A DNA stretch of 64,000 nucleotides from Xanthobacter sp. YC-JY1 (GTDB lineage Bacteria; Pseudomonadota; Alphaproteobacteria; Rhizobiales; Xanthobacteraceae). Numbering within the stretch: position 1 is the stretch's first letter; every line of letters starts with the position of its first letter. Positions 7,060 through 30,930 of the stretch are shown here, one piece after another. The stretch is taken from NCBI RefSeq assembly GCF_021730305.1, contig NZ_CP032674.1:1597001-1661000 (forward strand), given 5' to 3'. The position numbers and the translations under genes were made by a program. The notes beneath the pieces were generated by a model, which made no database searches, had not been told where the DNA came from, and was given only the letters and a program-made list of their open reading frames with translations.

Positions 7060-7884
7060 TCAAGCCGTCTTCAGCGCCGGGTCGTCCCGGCCGGTGCCCG
7101 AGGGAATGGCCGGGTCGTCCCGGCCGGGGGCGGTGGATTTCAGCTTCAGCTGACCCGCAATGCGCTTGGGCCAGACCTCGATGTCCTTGGCGATGGTGGC
7201 GCCGTAGCGGGCCTTTTCCTCCGGCCGGTTGCGGCGGCGCTCGAAGGCGATGATACGAGTGGCGAGGGTGAAGGCCTCCTTGAGGTCGTGGGTCACCATC
7301 ACCACGGTCATCTCGCAGGTGTTCCACAGCTTCAGCATGAGCTGGTGGATGTCGGCGCGGATGCCGGGATCCAGCGCGCCGAACGGCTCGTCCAGCAGCA
7401 GGATCTTGGGCTTGCGCATGATGGCCTGCGCCAGCGCGAGGCGCTGCTGCATGCCGCCGGAGAGGGCGGCGGGATACTTGTCCTCCGCGCCCTTGAGGCC
7501 GACCTCCTCGATGAGGGCGCGGGCCTCGTCCTGCGCCTGCCGGCGGCGGGCGCCGAACAGCCGGCCGGTCAGGGGCGCTTCCGCCATCTCGGCGGAGAGC
7601 AGCACGTTGCCGAGCACGGTGAGATGTGGGAACACCGAATAGCGCTGGAAGACGACGCCCCGGTCGGCGCCCGGCTCGCGGGCGATGGGCTGGCCCTCGA
7701 TCAGCACCTCGCCCCGCGTCGCGGTCTCCTCCGAGAGCAGGATGCGCAGGAAGGTGGTCTTGCCGCAGCCGGAGGGGCCGACAAGGGCGATGAAGGAGCG
7801 CGGCGCGAATTCGAGGCTGATGTCCTCGAGCACGATCTGCTCGCCATATTCCTTCCAGAGATGGCGTACGGAAATGGCGGTCAT
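7060..7884 (-). CDS. ABC transporter ATPase, guanidine uptake
   Basis: A 274-residue nucleotide-binding subunit of the nitrate/sulfonate/taurine importer class. Walker A GPSGCGKTT, signature LSGGMQQRLALAQA and Walker B ILLLDEPFGALD followed by the switch His in MVTHDLKEA are all intact, so it should hydrolyse ATP. The C-terminal ~50 residues (PEEKARYGATIAKDIEVWPKR onwards) are an extension and end in a repeated GRDDPA motif (PGRDDPAIPSGTGRDDPA). Its ATG overlaps the permease stop by four bases, so the two are translationally coupled. Confidence 0.93.
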   Translation of the reverse strand: MTAISVRHLWKEYGEQIVLEDISLEFAPRSFIALVGPSGCGKTTFLRILLSEETATRGEVLIEGQPIAREPGADRGVVFQRYSVFPHLTVLGNVLLSAEMAEAPLTGRLFGARRRQAQDEARALIEEVGLKGAEDKYPAALSGGMQQRLALAQAIMRKPKILLLDEPFGALDPGIRADIHQLMLKLWNTCEMTVVMVTHDLKEAFTLATRIIAFERRRNRPEEKARYGATIAKDIEVWPKRIAGQLKLKSTAPGRDDPAIPSGTGRDDPALKTA

Positions 7885-8693: not shown

Positions 8694-8745
8694 CAGCGCT
8701 GCTCCTGAAGGGTGCGTTTTCGAATTGCGGATCAGCCCGTCCGCC

Positions 8746-8854
8746 GTCATGCCCCGGCTCGTCCGAGGCATCCACTTGTCCGCTTGGAGGGTTCGGGCGT
8801 GTCGGAGAGCCGACTCGCTGGGCCGTGGATCCCCCGGACAAGCCGGGGGATGAC
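8746..8854. repeat. Palindromic intergenic repeat, GTCAT…ATGAC type (copy 2)
   Basis: 109 bp beginning GTCATGCCCCGGCTCGTCC and ending CGGGGGATGAC, with arms that can pair over about 30 bases. It sits inside the guanidine operon between the permease and binding-protein genes. Confidence 0.8.
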
Positions 8855-8881
8855 AGCTCGTCGAGTTGCCCCCCGGCGGGC

Positions 8882-9001
8882 TCCCTCTCCCCTTGCGGGA
8901 GAGGGCTGGGGTGAGGGGTGTGGTGTCCCTCGTCCGGGCGCCGGGGTGGGGCGGTGAAAGCCCCCTCACCCCCGGCCCCTCTCCCGCAAGGGGAGAGGGG
9001 A
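8882..9001. repeat. Paired GGGAGAGGG palindromes (opposed copies)
   Basis: Two copies of a hairpin built on CCCTCTCCC-GCAA-GGGGAGAGGG with a GGGGTGAGGGG tail, in opposite orientation about 60 bp apart. Similar pairs occur at 17549 and 24468. Together with the adjacent repeat this fills the 328-bp gap between operon genes, where it could act as an mRNA-stabilising or attenuating structure (inference). Confidence 0.75.
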
Positions 9002-9021
9002 GGAGGGAAGGCGCTACCCCC

Positions 9022-10125
9022 TCAGAGCTTCCCGTCGGCGACCATCGCCATCCAGGTGTCGGTGAAGCGCAGCTTCACGTTCTTGGCGTCGCCCAGCACC
9101 TTGCCGCCGGGCAGCTCGATGCCGATGGCGTCGGCGGACTTGGCGCCGGAGCCGAGCAGCTCCTTCTCGAACAGGAACTTGCGCACGCGGTCCATGGTGG
9201 TGCCCACATCCGGCGAGCGGACGAAGGCCACCGCCTCGGGCGCCTTGGCGAAAAGGCGGGTGGCGGCGAGTTGGCTGTCGAAGCCGGCGAGGTCGGTGCC
9301 GGAGGCCTTGCCCATGGCCTCCCGCGCCGCCTTGCCTTCCGGCGTGTCGGCGGTGAAGAGGGTGGTCGTGTCGTACCAGATGCCCACCAGCGCCTTGGCG
9401 AAGTCCGGGTTGTCCTTCAGCACGGCGGTGTTGGCGACGAGGAGGTCCATGATCTCGCCGGGGATCTTGGAGGAATCGAACACCGCATGGGCGTTCTTGT
9501 CGGTCAGGATTTCCGACACCAGCGGGTTCCAGGTGACCACCGCGGTGACCGCCTTGGTCTTGTAGGCGGCGACCATGTCGGCGTCCGAGGTGTTCACCAC
9601 CTTCACGTCGCGCTCCTTGAGCTTGATGCTCTCGAGCGCGCGGGCGAGCAGATAGTGGGAGACCGAGAATTCGACGAGGTTGACCTTCTGGCCCTTGATG
9701 GCGGCGAGGTCCTTCTTGCCCTTCAGGATCACGGCGTCATTGCCGTTGGAGAAGTCGCCGACGATGACGGCGGTGGTGTCCACGCCGCCGGCGGCGGGCA
9801 CGGAGAGGGCATCCATGTTGGTCACGGTGAGCGCGTCGAAGGCACCGGCCGTGTACTGGTTGATGCTCTCCACATAATCGTTGAACTGCACCACATCGAT
9901 CTTGATGCCGTACTTGTCGGCCCACTTCTTCACGATGCCGGTGTCGTTGGCGTAGCCCCAGGGCATCCAGCCCACATAGATCGACCAGGCGACCTTGAAT
10001 TCCTTCTTGGGCGCGGCTTCGGCCGGGCCGGCGCCGAGCGCGAGGCCGGCGACGGCGGCAAGGCCCAGCGCGCCAGCGAGCGCGGATTTCAGACGATGAA
10101 GTTTGGACGAAACCGGAGTGCGCAT
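9022..10125 (-). CDS. Periplasmic binding protein of the guanidine (urea-carboxylase-linked) ABC importer
   Basis: A 367-residue secreted binding protein of the NitT/TauT-like family that occurs next to urea/guanidine carboxylases. A signal peptide covers roughly residues 1–37 (KSALAGALGLAAVAGLALG, cleavage near AEAA). The mature part begins KKEFKVAWSIYVGWMPWGY, typical of the family. First gene of the operon; a guanidine-I riboswitch lies about 70 bp upstream of its ATG, so its synthesis should rise with guanidine. Guanidine as ligand is inferred from this context. Confidence 0.92.
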   Translation of the reverse strand: MRTPVSSKLHRLKSALAGALGLAAVAGLALGAGPAEAAPKKEFKVAWSIYVGWMPWGYANDTGIVKKWADKYGIKIDVVQFNDYVESINQYTAGAFDALTVTNMDALSVPAAGGVDTTAVIVGDFSNGNDAVILKGKKDLAAIKGQKVNLVEFSVSHYLLARALESIKLKERDVKVVNTSDADMVAAYKTKAVTAVVTWNPLVSEILTDKNAHAVFDSSKIPGEIMDLLVANTAVLKDNPDFAKALVGIWYDTTTLFTADTPEGKAAREAMGKASGTDLAGFDSQLAATRLFAKAPEAVAFVRSPDVGTTMDRVRKFLFEKELLGSGAKSADAIGIELPGGKVLGDAKNVKLRFTDTWMAMVADGKL

Positions 10126-10192: not shown

Positions 10193-10305
10193 AGGTCTCC
10201 CGGGCTTTTATCCCGCCGTGCACCCGCGCCGGATGTCTCCCGTCGCGGTGGCAGCTCTCGGACCAGCGCATCTCTTGGATGCCGGAACCCTAGCCACCAA
10301 CTCGA
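10193..10305 (-). promoter_or_regulatory. Guanidine-I (ykkC) riboswitch
   Basis: On the minus strand the leader contains the conserved blocks of the ykkC RNA in order: CTAGGGTTCCG, a small hairpin (GCATC/GATGC), CTGGTCCGAGAG, a longer stem (CACCGCG/CGCGGGTG), then ACGGCGGGATAAAAGCCC and GGGAGA. The RNA binds guanidinium and in most known cases turns genes on. Its place before an importer, two DUF1989 genes and a carboxylase fits the known guanidine-catabolic gene set. Exact ends of the outer stem are approximate. Confidence 0.93.
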
Positions 10306-17449: not shown

Positions 17450-17548
17450 GGCGATGCAGCCTCTTGGGGGCGTGAACCGCAGATAGCGACGCGACCCGCC
17501 TGCCGCAAGGGGTTGAGGGGATGAAGGTGGTCTCGCAGCGGTCCTTCC

Positions 17549-17668
17549 TCCCCTCTCCCCTCGCGGGAGAGGGGCCGGGGGTGAGGGGGCTGGCGTCGCA
17601 ATCCCAACCTCCGGGCAAAGGGCGAAACACCCCTCACCCCAGCCCTCTCCCGCAAGGGGAGAGGGGGC
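17549..17668. repeat. Paired GGGAGAGGG palindromes (opposed copies)
   Basis: Two opposed copies of the CCCTCTCCC-GC(A/G)A-GGGGAGAGGG hairpin about 60 bp apart, in the 353-bp gap between the divergent DUF2948 and hydrolase genes. The same family lies at 8882 and 24468. Nothing coding is seen in the gap. Confidence 0.75.
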
Positions 17669-17802
17669 GCGGCCGGCGCCTTCCCGGGTCCCGGCCGCAT
17701 CCCGGCGACGCTCAATCGGGGGGCGCACGGGCGGTCGCGTCGGCGTGCTTTGCCGGCAAGGCTGAGCCCTGTAGGTTCGCCCCGAGCGAAGGGGGACGGG
17801 GA

Positions 17803-20785: not shown

Positions 20786-20894
20786 GTCATGCCCCGGCTC
20801 GTCCGGGGCATCCACCCCACTGCTTTTTTGCTGCCGGCGATTAAGTCACTCGCCCGGCCGTGCCGTGGATCCCCCGGACACGCCGGGGGATGAC
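20786..20894. repeat. Palindromic intergenic repeat, GTCAT…ATGAC type (copy 3)
   Basis: 109 bp starting GTCATGCCCCGGCTCGTCC and ending CCGGGGGATGAC, with long self-complementary arms. It ends 58 bp before livH and follows the 160-bp element directly, so the whole 374-bp gap before livH is repeat DNA. Confidence 0.8.
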
Positions 20895-20952
20895 GGTCCT
20901 GAAGCGGTGGCGCATCCTCCTTGAGCCGTCCCGGTCCAGCCTCGCCCCGCTC

Positions 20953-24239: not shown

Positions 24240-24314
24240 GGGGCGGCGGCGACGCAATCGCTTTCCCGGATAAGCGACGGCGCGGCAGGGGCGCCAGGCT
24301 TGTCCTGTGCGCGC

Positions 24315-24420
24315 GTCATCGCCCGGCTTGTCCGGGCGATCCACCCCTCCGCTGGCGCGCTGTCCGAAAGTCCGACCTGGCCCTCCCGTGGATCGCCCGG
24401 CCAAGCCGGGCGATCCACGG
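24315..24420. repeat. Palindromic intergenic repeat, GTCAT type (copy 4)
   Basis: Starts GTCATCGCCCGGCTTGTCC and ends in GCCGGGCGATCCACGG; the closing ATGAC seen in other copies is missing. Arms remain self-complementary. Confidence 0.7.
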
Positions 24421-24437: not shown

Positions 24438-24716
24438 CCTCGCAGATCGCGCCAAGCGGTGCCGTTCCCCCTCACCCCAACCCTCTCCCGCGAGGGGAGA
24501 GGGAGGCAAACGGCGACGGGGCGCGGGGATATCAGGCTGTCGTTCCGCGCACCGACGGGGACGCATCCCGTCGCCATCTTGCGCCGCCATAACTCCCCTC
24601 TCCCCTTGCGGGAGAGGGGCTGGGGGTGAGGGGGCAGGCCGGGCTCCGGCCTCCGCAGTCCGCGCCAAGCGGTGCCAGAACCCCTCACCCCGGCCCTCTC
24701 CCGCAAGGGGAGAGGG
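24438..24716. repeat. Cluster of three GGGAGAGGG palindromes with a direct repeat
   Basis: Three copies of the CCCTCTCCC-GC(A/G)A-GGGGAGAGGG hairpin (24468–24506, 24594–24633, 24680–24716), the middle one inverted. The first and third are preceded by the same block CGCGCCAAGCGGTGCC, so a roughly 60-bp unit is repeated directly. With the copy-4 repeat it fills the gap 24240–24729 between the convergent livF and pfpI-like genes; no gene is seen. Confidence 0.75.
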
Positions 24717-24729
24717 AGAGCCCCCCCCC

Positions 24730-30063: not shown

Positions 30064-30202
30064 GGGCAGGCGGAGCCGGCAATCTGTGAGGGGCGCGCGA
30101 CGTCGGTCACCCAAAGTCAGGCGCCCGGAGAGCAGCCCTTCAGTCTAGCCGGGATGGCGGGCGGGGGGAACGGGGGCTACAGGCAACGAAGCCGCCTTCG
30201 TT

Positions 30203-30363
30203 CCCCGGACAAGCGACGGCGGAGCCGGAGCGCTGATCCGGGGTCCAGCGCAAGACTCCCGCGCAGCGGGCAAAGCCTGAGAGCGTTGGGGTTTAGCAGC
30301 GCCTTCGGCGGCTTTTTGCGCTGGGCCCCGGCTCGCATTCCGCTTTGCTACATGCGTCCGGGG
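30203..30363 (+). repeat. 161-bp element with 8-bp terminal inverted repeats, upstream copy
   Basis: Bounded by CCCCGGAC and GTCCGGGG and rich in internal self-complementarity (for example GCGCTG…CAGCGC). It belongs to a 177-bp block (30199–30375) that recurs at 30711–30887 with only two differences. The GIY-YIG gene lies between the copies. Together with 30064–30198 and 30364–30416, where nothing else is seen, it fills the gap between dnaG and that gene. Confidence 0.9.
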
Positions 30364-30416
30364 CGCGAGGGCGGTAGGGGCGTCCCGCGCTTCCACGGCT
30401 ATGCTAGCCTGCAGCC

Positions 30417-30704
30417 ATGCAGGGCTTTGCCGTCTACATCCTTGCAAGTGGTCGCAACGGGACGCTCTACGTGGGTGTCACGAACGATCTGGCCCGGCGC
30501 CTGTTCGAGCATCGCTCCGGCGCCGTCCCCGGCTTCACCCGCAAATATGCCGTCCATCTCCTCGTGCATGTGGACCTGTTCGACGACCTGGATGCCGCCC
30601 GCGCCCACGAACGGCGCCTGAAGAAGTGGCATCGGGACTGGAAACTCGCCCTCATCGAGGGGGATAACCCCGAGTGGCGTGATCTGGCCGAAGACTGGCT
30701 TTGA
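30417..30704 (+). CDS. GIY-YIG nuclease-family protein
   Basis: A 95-residue single-domain GIY-YIG protein of the short bacterial type (UPF0213/YhbQ-like). The paired motifs are VYIL (residues 6–9) and LYVG (17–20), followed by the conserved Arg in TNDLARRLFEH and the metal-binding Glu in AHERRLKKW (about residue 65). These residues suit a metal-dependent nuclease, though activity of such short proteins is mostly unproven. It begins 41 bp after one 177-bp repeat and ends 6 bp before the other, so the gene and its repeats look like one unit. Opposite strand to dnaG and rpoD. Confidence 0.88.
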   Translation: MQGFAVYILASGRNGTLYVGVTNDLARRLFEHRSGAVPGFTRKYAVHLLVHVDLFDDLDAARAHERRLKKWHRDWKLALIEGDNPEWRDLAEDWL

Positions 30705-30714
30705 CGATCGCGTT

Positions 30715-30875
30715 CCCCGGACAAGCGACGGCGGAGCCGGAGCGCTGATCCGGGGTCCAGCGCAAGACTCCCGCGCAGCGGGCAAAGCCTGAGAGCGTTG
30801 GGGTTTAGCAGCGCCTCCGGCGGCTTTTTGCGCTGGGCCCCGGCTCGCATTCCGCTTTGCTACATGCGTCCGGGG
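30715..30875 (+). repeat. 161-bp element with 8-bp terminal inverted repeats, downstream copy
   Basis: Second copy, same orientation as the one at 30203; only two differences over the 177-bp block (a T/C change and a C/T change). The near identity points to a recent duplication or gene conversion. Confidence 0.9.
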
Positions 30876-30930
30876 CGTGAGGGCGGTTCGGTGTCGGGCA
30901 GCGGCGTGCGCAATACCCCCGCAATCCCAC

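Follow-up and report, generated by a model that had tools for sequence, protein, structure and literature searches.

Pairing of a small GIY-YIG nuclease gene with palindromic REP repeats in Xanthobacter and beyond

Why does a small nuclease gene lie between two near-identical, structured repeats? The question arises in Xanthobacter sp. YC-JY1, in a stretch of 64,000 nucleotides (contig NZ_CP032674.1, positions 1,597,001 to 1,661,000 of the forward strand) that we call the window. An initial annotation, made from sequence alone, had described a 177-bp block on each side of a GIY-YIG gene, had likened the arrangement to REP repeats and their RAYT transposases with the nuclease in the transposase's place, and had proposed that the nuclease spreads or maintains its own repeats.

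The window locus and its nuclease

The description of the blocks held on sequence comparison. The two have the same orientation, differ only at positions 30305 (T/C) and 30366 (C/T), and lose their identity sharply at either edge (Table 1). CCCCGGAC begins at 30203 and 30715 and GTCCGGGG at 30356 and 30868; therefore each 161-bp core has 8-bp terminal inverted repeats, exactly where the initial annotation had placed them, and the element shows this feature of transposons and MITEs. The third, diverged copy that it had reported is real as well, and we add that it is reverse-complemented. The many internal complementary pairs it had mentioned can be refined: judging by eye, the 177-bp block is best taken as a spacer with a REP-like hairpin on each side, the two hairpins being inverted relative to each other, as in a REPIN-like pair. 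The outer hairpin has a CGTT tag, a 7-bp stem (CCCCGGA/TCCGGGG), a 27-nt loop and a TCCA tail, and its counterpart in genomes G041 and G084 is a single hairpin, one per gene side, inverted. When folded as a single DNA strand, the left element scored better than shuffled versions of it (z = -2.86; 1 of 200 shuffles was equally good).

Table 1. Features of the window locus (window coordinates)
Feature	Start	End	Strand	Basis and remarks
Left 177-bp REPIN-like element	30199	30375	+	161-bp core 30203-30363, 8-bp terminal inverted repeats; sequence comparison, genome matches, folding
Outer REP-like hairpin, left element	30199	30247	+	Read by eye; counterpart single hairpins in G041, G084
Inner inverted REP-like hairpin, left element	30322	30367	-	Read by eye; half-element map
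Single-domain GIY-YIG nuclease gene	30417	30704	+	95 codons; PF01541; Y7, Y18, R28, E65 present
Right 177-bp REPIN-like element	30711	30887	+	161-bp core 30715-30875; 2 differences from left; genome matches
Diverged solo element copy	20604	20763	-	74% identity; inside stretch aligning through in relative G101
Segment not common to the two closest genus relatives	30178	30915		Flanks match on both sides (dnaG side, AGCS side)

CGTC-tagged REPs offer a natural comparison. A 2013 survey found them in five phyla and in all alphaproteobacterial orders (PMC3733652), apparently without a dedicated transposase, and no associated enzyme was found (Di Nocera 2013, PMC3733652). Such a REP has an unpaired CGTC (or TGTC/CCTC) tag, an 8- to 9-bp stem, a 4- to 5-nt loop and a CCA tail. 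The window repeat departs from this consensus, above all in its CGTT tag and long loop; another CGTC-REP trait, inverted (HH) multicopy dimers, is present. A 162-bp query with the window element gave 40 matches at E ≤ 0.001 in the 5.39-Mb genome, an approximate number, with 40 of 68 candidates scored and some matches being partial or adjoining pieces. The window gene is flanked by two direct REPINs, not by one split inverted pair.

Simple duplication had been left possible by the initial annotation. An isolated tandem duplication is rejected on the 40 matches and on the recurrence of the pairing in relatives. Spread by plasmid is also rejected: the plasmid collection contains nothing that matches the DNA of the locus, and the protein matches 34 records there, all below 60% identity.

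The 95-residue product matches a sole Pfam family, PF01541, over residues 5-76 (E = 6e-13), and an NCBIfam search assigned it to no family. Its AlphaFold model is a compact single domain (mean pLDDT 91.6). The nearest fold is UPF0213 structure 1zg2 (E = 4e-4), followed by Slx1 structures (E = 2.6e-3 and weaker, TM-score about 0.5-0.6), and profile searches matched 1zg2 and 1ywl. Neither the Pfam search nor the structure model revealed a separate sequence-specific DNA-binding domain (NUMOD). Across 138 homologues the near-invariant residues are Y7 (136/138), Y18 (138/138), R28 (138/138), H32, E65 (137/138) and N84. We take Y7, Y18, R28 and E65 to be the catalytic Tyr, Tyr, Arg and Glu, and activity is inferred from them. 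Seven of the 138 homologue open reading frames (ORFs) contain an internal stop. According to the titles of the matched structures, Slx1 acts on branched DNA; an extruded REPIN would be branched DNA and hence, we infer, a possible Slx1-like substrate. A phage homing endonuclease is rejected, with no match among 50,697 phage records.

The genome carries a second GIY-YIG gene, 56% identical to the window gene, with a REP pair at its 3' side only. This pair belongs to a different, CGTC-tagged family; a query with the second gene's flank gave 70 matches, about 42 distinct places by eye, many of them matched on both strands. The genome holds at least two repeat families, with a GIY-YIG gene adjoining a copy of each.

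The window contains other repeats and structured elements. A CGTC-type REP pair at 8740-8854 (genome 1605740-1605854) is of the second gene's repeat family, and further CGTC-type pairs were seen by eye at about 20788-20905 and at 24311-24420. Another dispersed inverted-pair repeat, CCCTCTCCCCTTGCGGGAGAGGG...CTCTCCCGCAAGGGGAGAGGG, lies at 8880-9002, 17547-17681 and 24595-24725, and its presence differs relative to genomes G101 and G073. The segment 24327-25876, with what we take to be a DJ-1/PfpI-like gene, is absent from G101, and a copy of the 161-bp element lies near the junction there. No Rfam RNA was found at the GIY-YIG locus; the window's matches lie elsewhere and are a guanidine-I and a guanidine-II riboswitch, at 10195-10304 (-) and 7077-7126 (-), about 3 kb apart.

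Most related GIY-YIG genes lie between inverted repeats

Homologues are present in 84 of 100 family genomes, with up to 12 per genome. We examined 60 stretches from family genomes, together with 80 loci in named records that span many phyla. The latter were picked by protein alone, and because a large number of them are metagenome bins, the taxonomy given for them is no more than indicative. At least one locus occurs in both sets (L085 and L176 have equal coordinates) and was collapsed in the cluster count. In a motif-free test, the 200 bp upstream of each gene were compared with the reverse complement of the 200 bp downstream, with the ORFs of the same loci as controls. Leaving out 7 of 145 GIY-YIG matches with flanks under 200 bp gave 138 genes.

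At a score of 14 or more, 92/138 GIY-YIG genes were positive, compared with 12/1,223 control ORFs; the counts were 66/138 and 1/1,223 at 20 or more, and 52/138 and 0/1,223 at 25 or more. Both sources contributed at the lowest threshold (family, 45/62 vs 6/624 controls; named records, 47/76 vs 6/599). When loci with similar flanks were collapsed, 60 of 83 clusters remained positive, compared with 5 of 326 isolated control ORFs, those alone between intergenic gaps. Flanks taken 1.0-1.2 kb away from the GIY-YIG genes were never positive (0/129), and flanks mismatched between loci were positive in 8%. The repeat arms, mostly CGTC-type REPs by eye (for example GTCATTCCCGCGAAAGCGGGAATCCAG), lie close to the 92 genes, at median distances of 22 bp upstream from the start and 11 bp downstream from the stop. 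The pairing of GIY-YIG genes with REPs is real and far wider than the window locus. The initial annotation held that its proposal would be refuted if the element showed no association with GIY-YIG genes in relatives, and the opposite was found: the association is very strong.

A separate hairpin detector gave the orientation of the repeats. Canonical GTC-tagged hairpins with the tag outward occur at 5.1 per kb in the first 100 bp and at 0.12-0.13 per kb at 1-8 kb; outward and inward hairpins number 142 and 45 in the first 100 bp and approach parity beyond 1 kb. Canonical outward REPs lie within 250 bp on both sides of 60/138 genes, as against 4/326 isolated controls, and on at least one side of 100/138, as against 42/326. 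The repeat typical of relatives, from 83 distinct short-loop hairpins read, has a GTC tag, an 8- to 9-bp stem mostly starting AT, a short loop and a CCA tail, and 107/138 genes have a GTC-tagged hairpin within 250 bp. Since these hairpins were selected for pairing, we make no covariation claim from their alignments, which are single-length; a mixed-length version was dropped for inconsistent pair registers. No clear inverted pair surrounds 46/138 genes, and 31/138 lack a canonical GTC hairpin within 250 bp, some of them bearing variant tags as the window does.

Could REPs simply be tolerated around small dispensable genes and accumulate there, or could the window be a local duplication? REPs are mainly intergenic (PMC3733652), and the two window blocks are near-identical, as after a recent duplication. 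However, isolated control ORFs of 150 aa or less show an inverted pair in only 1/70 cases and outward canonical REPs on both sides in 0/70. The excess in the motif-free test (92/138 vs 12/1,223), the control 1 kb away and the within-genome permutation described below also contradict this hitch-hiking explanation, which we regard as all but excluded.

The pairing recurs beyond relatives, in named records from several phyla. Among the 34 plasmid-collection records with a protein match, several apparently chromosomes by their size, we read the flanks of 10 and saw repeats on both sides of the gene by eye in 8. In Neisseria gonorrhoeae the gene lies between repeats ATTCCCGC...GCGGGAAT, which we take to be the dRS3 core. 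Repeats on both sides were also seen in A. lipoferum 4B, S. meliloti, N. aromaticivorans, Sphingobium and A. caviae; PMC3733652 counts Neisseria, A. lipoferum, S. meliloti and N. aromaticivorans as CGTC-positive. The Planktothrix gene has repeats of GTCATTCTGAGTGAAACGAAGAATCTC type on both sides, and the Spirosoma gene has repeats of GTCATCCC type, its downstream copy being unlike the upstream one. In Photobacterium and R. tumorigenes, no repeats were seen by eye close to the gene on both sides. The Planktothrix gene (L248, 3001-3285) sits between an MmeI-type enzyme gene and the DISARM gene drmA, and the repeats around it may be a further cognate repeat class.

Nuclease and repeat type, copy number and presence at defined sites

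Similar nucleases have similar repeats at unrelated loci. Among gene pairs without similar flanks, a repeat is shared (score of 20 or more) in 72% of 47 pairs at a protein identity of 0.7-0.8 and in 2-6% at 0.4-0.6. To remove genome relatedness, we shuffled repeat labels among paralogues within genomes and compared non-syntenic cross-genome pairs (66 genes, 33 genomes, 16 of them with two or more genes, 2,025 pairs). The Spearman correlation between protein and repeat similarity was 0.299; the permutations averaged 0.078 with a maximum of 0.178, and 0 of 2,000 reached the observed value. At a protein identity of at least 0.65, the repeat was shared in 68% of 53 pairs, compared with a permutation mean of 24%. 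Translated comparison of 6-kb flanks found no similarity in 18 of 20 high-identity pairs; the remaining two were the syntenic G109/G106 pair and one pair with a cross-side match in six segments. The window protein itself is 93% and 87% identical to proteins of G109 and G106, which stand at other loci with the same repeat type. This covariation between non-syntenic loci indicates that nuclease and cognate repeat type change locus together. Within genomes, the repeats of gene pairs are dissimilar in 59/73.

The arrangement of the repeats varies. In G041 and G084, the two halves of a single inverted pair enclose the gene; in G106 (L235, about 8714-9337) four window-type element matches stand in tandem directly 3' of the nuclease gene, and in G109 element pieces are found mainly after the gene.

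We then considered copy number. Genus genomes that carry a gene of 76% or higher identity to the window gene have 40, 64, 46 and 8 window-type matches (median 43), compared with 44, 38, 24, 11, 5, 3, 1, 0, 0 and 0 (median 4) in the 10 genus genomes without such a gene (one-sided p = 0.02). The counts are rough, and the 76% line was drawn after inspection of the data. Across the 100 family genomes, the numbers of GIY-YIG genes and CGTC REPs correlate (rho = 0.65), as they do with one genome per genus (n = 47, rho = 0.62), and the median number of CGTC-REP matches is 28 where the gene is absent (16 genomes) and 104 where it is present (84 genomes). Counts from each of the two covariance models level off near 75 per genome, so only rank tests were used. 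Some genomes are rich in repeats without a detectable gene, namely G101 and G103, with 44 and 38 window-type matches, and G039, G021 and G018, with 76, 73 and 71 R1 matches. They speak against a strict dependence of the repeats on the gene, although gene loss, assembly gaps or more distant nucleases might explain them. A RAYT as the mobiliser is rejected for this genus: PF01797 (HUH/Y1 RAYT-type) transposases were found in 0 of 14 window-genus genomes, and a control search was positive in 5 of 14 known genomes.

At the window, the genes flanking the locus, named from sequence, are taken to be dnaG and an AGCS transporter gene. The two closest genus relatives (91-93%) match the window to 30175/30177 and resume at 30916, and their dnaG-AGCS sites hold other CGTC REPs and no GIY-YIG gene. 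A long AGCS match was found in 10 genus relatives; in all of them the AGCS gene lacks a neighboring GIY-YIG gene, and in 6 the dnaG-AGCS junction was seen. Relatives thus lack the unit at the corresponding site; no clean empty site showing a target duplication was found at the window, the two closest relatives carrying other REPs there.

Another such site is found in A. lipoferum 4B, where a 507-bp REPIN-gene-REPIN unit lies in the 617-bp intergenic region between sufB and sufC. The same region in five relatives is 32-129 bp long, with no gene and, by eye, no REP; these relatives lack the whole unit, not the gene alone. The intergenic regions of these five Azospirillum relatives are too diverged to define a target-site duplication. 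The REP of the A. lipoferum unit is wholly unlike the window repeat, and therefore the window architecture recurs with another repeat.

The main rival explanation is homing: a selfish free-standing GIY-YIG gene would use REPs or REPINs spread by another factor as landing sites, and its insertion would split a REPIN and leave one REP per side. GIY-YIG domains do drive homing elsewhere (PMC1564403), the gene is inside a split pair in G041 and G084, cognate matching would also follow from target recognition, and a separate spreader would account for genomes that have the repeats without the gene. Against homing, the A. lipoferum gene together with two full REPINs occupies a site that is REP-free by eye in five relatives, the protein has one Pfam domain covering residues 5-76 of 95 and no accessory DNA-binding domain, no RAYT that could spread the repeats in its place was detected in the genus, genomes with more of the genes have more repeats, and the 50,697 phage records hold no match. 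On balance we consider homing unlikely.

Decay states were read by eye at one intergenic site in the genus of G024, whose repeat type resembles that of the named Bradyrhizobium loci L105, L106 and L112. We searched 146 genomes and read 30 loci, two of them (L275, L281) without a readable upstream side. The site holds whole units, 12 of which align through; genes that carry a stop or are truncated (L265, L269); a REP-remnant-REP arrangement (L270); and solo REPs (L271, L272, L274 and L277, the last of which retains the gene's last codons). As read in L270, internal deletion of a unit can yield a REP pair without a working gene, a REPIN-like derivative.

A second rival is maintenance, in which the nuclease, as a host or addiction factor, would trim or resolve REP cruciforms, and selection would hold it near the repeats without its spreading them. 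The fold matches do include Slx1 branched-DNA nucleases, and a benefit of REPINs to the host has been proposed (PMC8049555). However, a resolvase acting in trans does not have to lie between two copies of its own repeat type or to move to other loci along with them. The presence of up to 12 homologues in a genome, the dissimilar repeats of most within-genome pairs (59/73) and broken copies, that is, the internal stops (7/138) and truncated copies at the Bradyrhizobium-like site, also argue against this explanation, and we find it very unlikely.

A proposed mobile unit and its relation to known systems

We favor instead the reading of the locus as a minimal mobile unit: a small gene of the Slx1 GIY-YIG type with its cognate palindromic repeats on either side, whose REP hairpins orient the tag outward and the CCA tail toward the gene. 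The nuclease would recognize the hairpin or cruciform of its cognate REP type in single-stranded or extruded DNA and would nick or cut it; repair or replication may then place copies at new intergenic sites, either of the whole REP-gene-REP unit or of REP pairs without the gene (REPINs). Gene-bearing units would be autonomous, and the genome-wide REPINs would be their non-autonomous derivatives, as MITEs are of transposons. That the Slx1-like nuclease is the missing partner of the repeats, and the repeats its non-autonomous derivatives, is in our judgment likely (probability about 0.64). The association, the orientation, the matching of protein and repeat type, the presence or absence of units at defined sites and the decay states are shown. 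Binding and cutting by the nuclease, and copying by such activity, are inferred, with no biochemistry and no observed transposition. Other points that weigh against this reading are the repeat-rich genomes without a detectable gene, the 46/138 genes lacking a clear inverted pair, the one-sided REP pair of the second gene, the direct REPINs and off-consensus repeat of the window, and the want of a clean empty site or a defined target-site duplication. The claims of the initial annotation fare accordingly by part: the analogy with REP/RAYT is supported by the association, its recurrence in named records from several phyla, the absence at the same site and the lack of a detected RAYT in 14 genus genomes; that the nuclease spreads or maintains its repeats is still inference, without data on binding, cutting or spreading.

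A bolder reading is that many bacterial phyla harbor a new class of mobile element, in which a stand-alone Slx1-like GIY-YIG nuclease spreads CGTC REPs and REPINs by hairpin cutting; the evidence tips only modestly in its favor. Mobile-element classes are defined by their enzyme, and a GIY-YIG-driven DNA repeat system would therefore be a new class, convergent with REP/RAYT. To our knowledge, no earlier system of this kind has been described in bacteria. If true, it would settle which factor moves CGTC REPs, a question left from 2013, including Neisseria dRS3 and the large alphaproteobacterial families, and would suggest a function for small proteins annotated only "GIY-YIG nuclease family protein." A cognate nuclease gene between CGTC REPs makes the question of their mover directly testable. 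We found no report tying GIY-YIG to REP or dRS3 repeats in the open-access literature searched: the main text of PMC12306157 mentions no nuclease or transposase, and the relevant parts of PMC5082802 and PMC4046053 contain no such link. Preprints and most subscription journals were outside this scope, and an earlier report is not excluded. Even under the homing or maintenance rivals, the pairing remains unreported in that literature.

Among known systems, GIY-YIG homing endonucleases of the I-TevI type share the catalytic domain superfamily and possibly a selfish lifestyle; the window protein differs in having no extra DNA-binding domain, no phage match and flanks of multicopy repeats. UPF0213 and other prokaryotic proteins of the Slx1 cluster resemble it in a single GIY-YIG domain and in profile and fold matches. 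Small prokaryotic GIY-YIG proteins have been placed near Slx1, with suggested roles in repair or restriction-modification, and a GIY-YIG domain recently inserted in an HsdR gene has been described (PMC1564403), but the relevant parts of that paper make no link to repeats. As for the CGTC-tagged REP superfamily, which includes Neisseria dRS3, the flanking repeats of many relatives are exactly such REPs, whereas the window element has its CGTT tag and 27-nt loop. A close parallel is the REPtron, REPs or REPINs with a RAYT, the TnpA-REP tyrosine transposase (PMC8049555, PMC8266576). In both, a small nuclease gene is bordered by cognate palindromes, REPIN-like inverted pairs are dispersed genome-wide, and repeats cluster by the gene, as in the tandem matches of G106 and near tnpA-REP (PMC8266576). 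The two differ in their enzyme, GIY-YIG here and HUH/Y1 there, and in their tags, CGTC-type in relatives and CGTT at the window as opposed to GTAG. Finally, GIY-YIG genes are often multicopy at changing sites, whereas RAYTs are described as single-copy and vertically inherited (PMC8049555).
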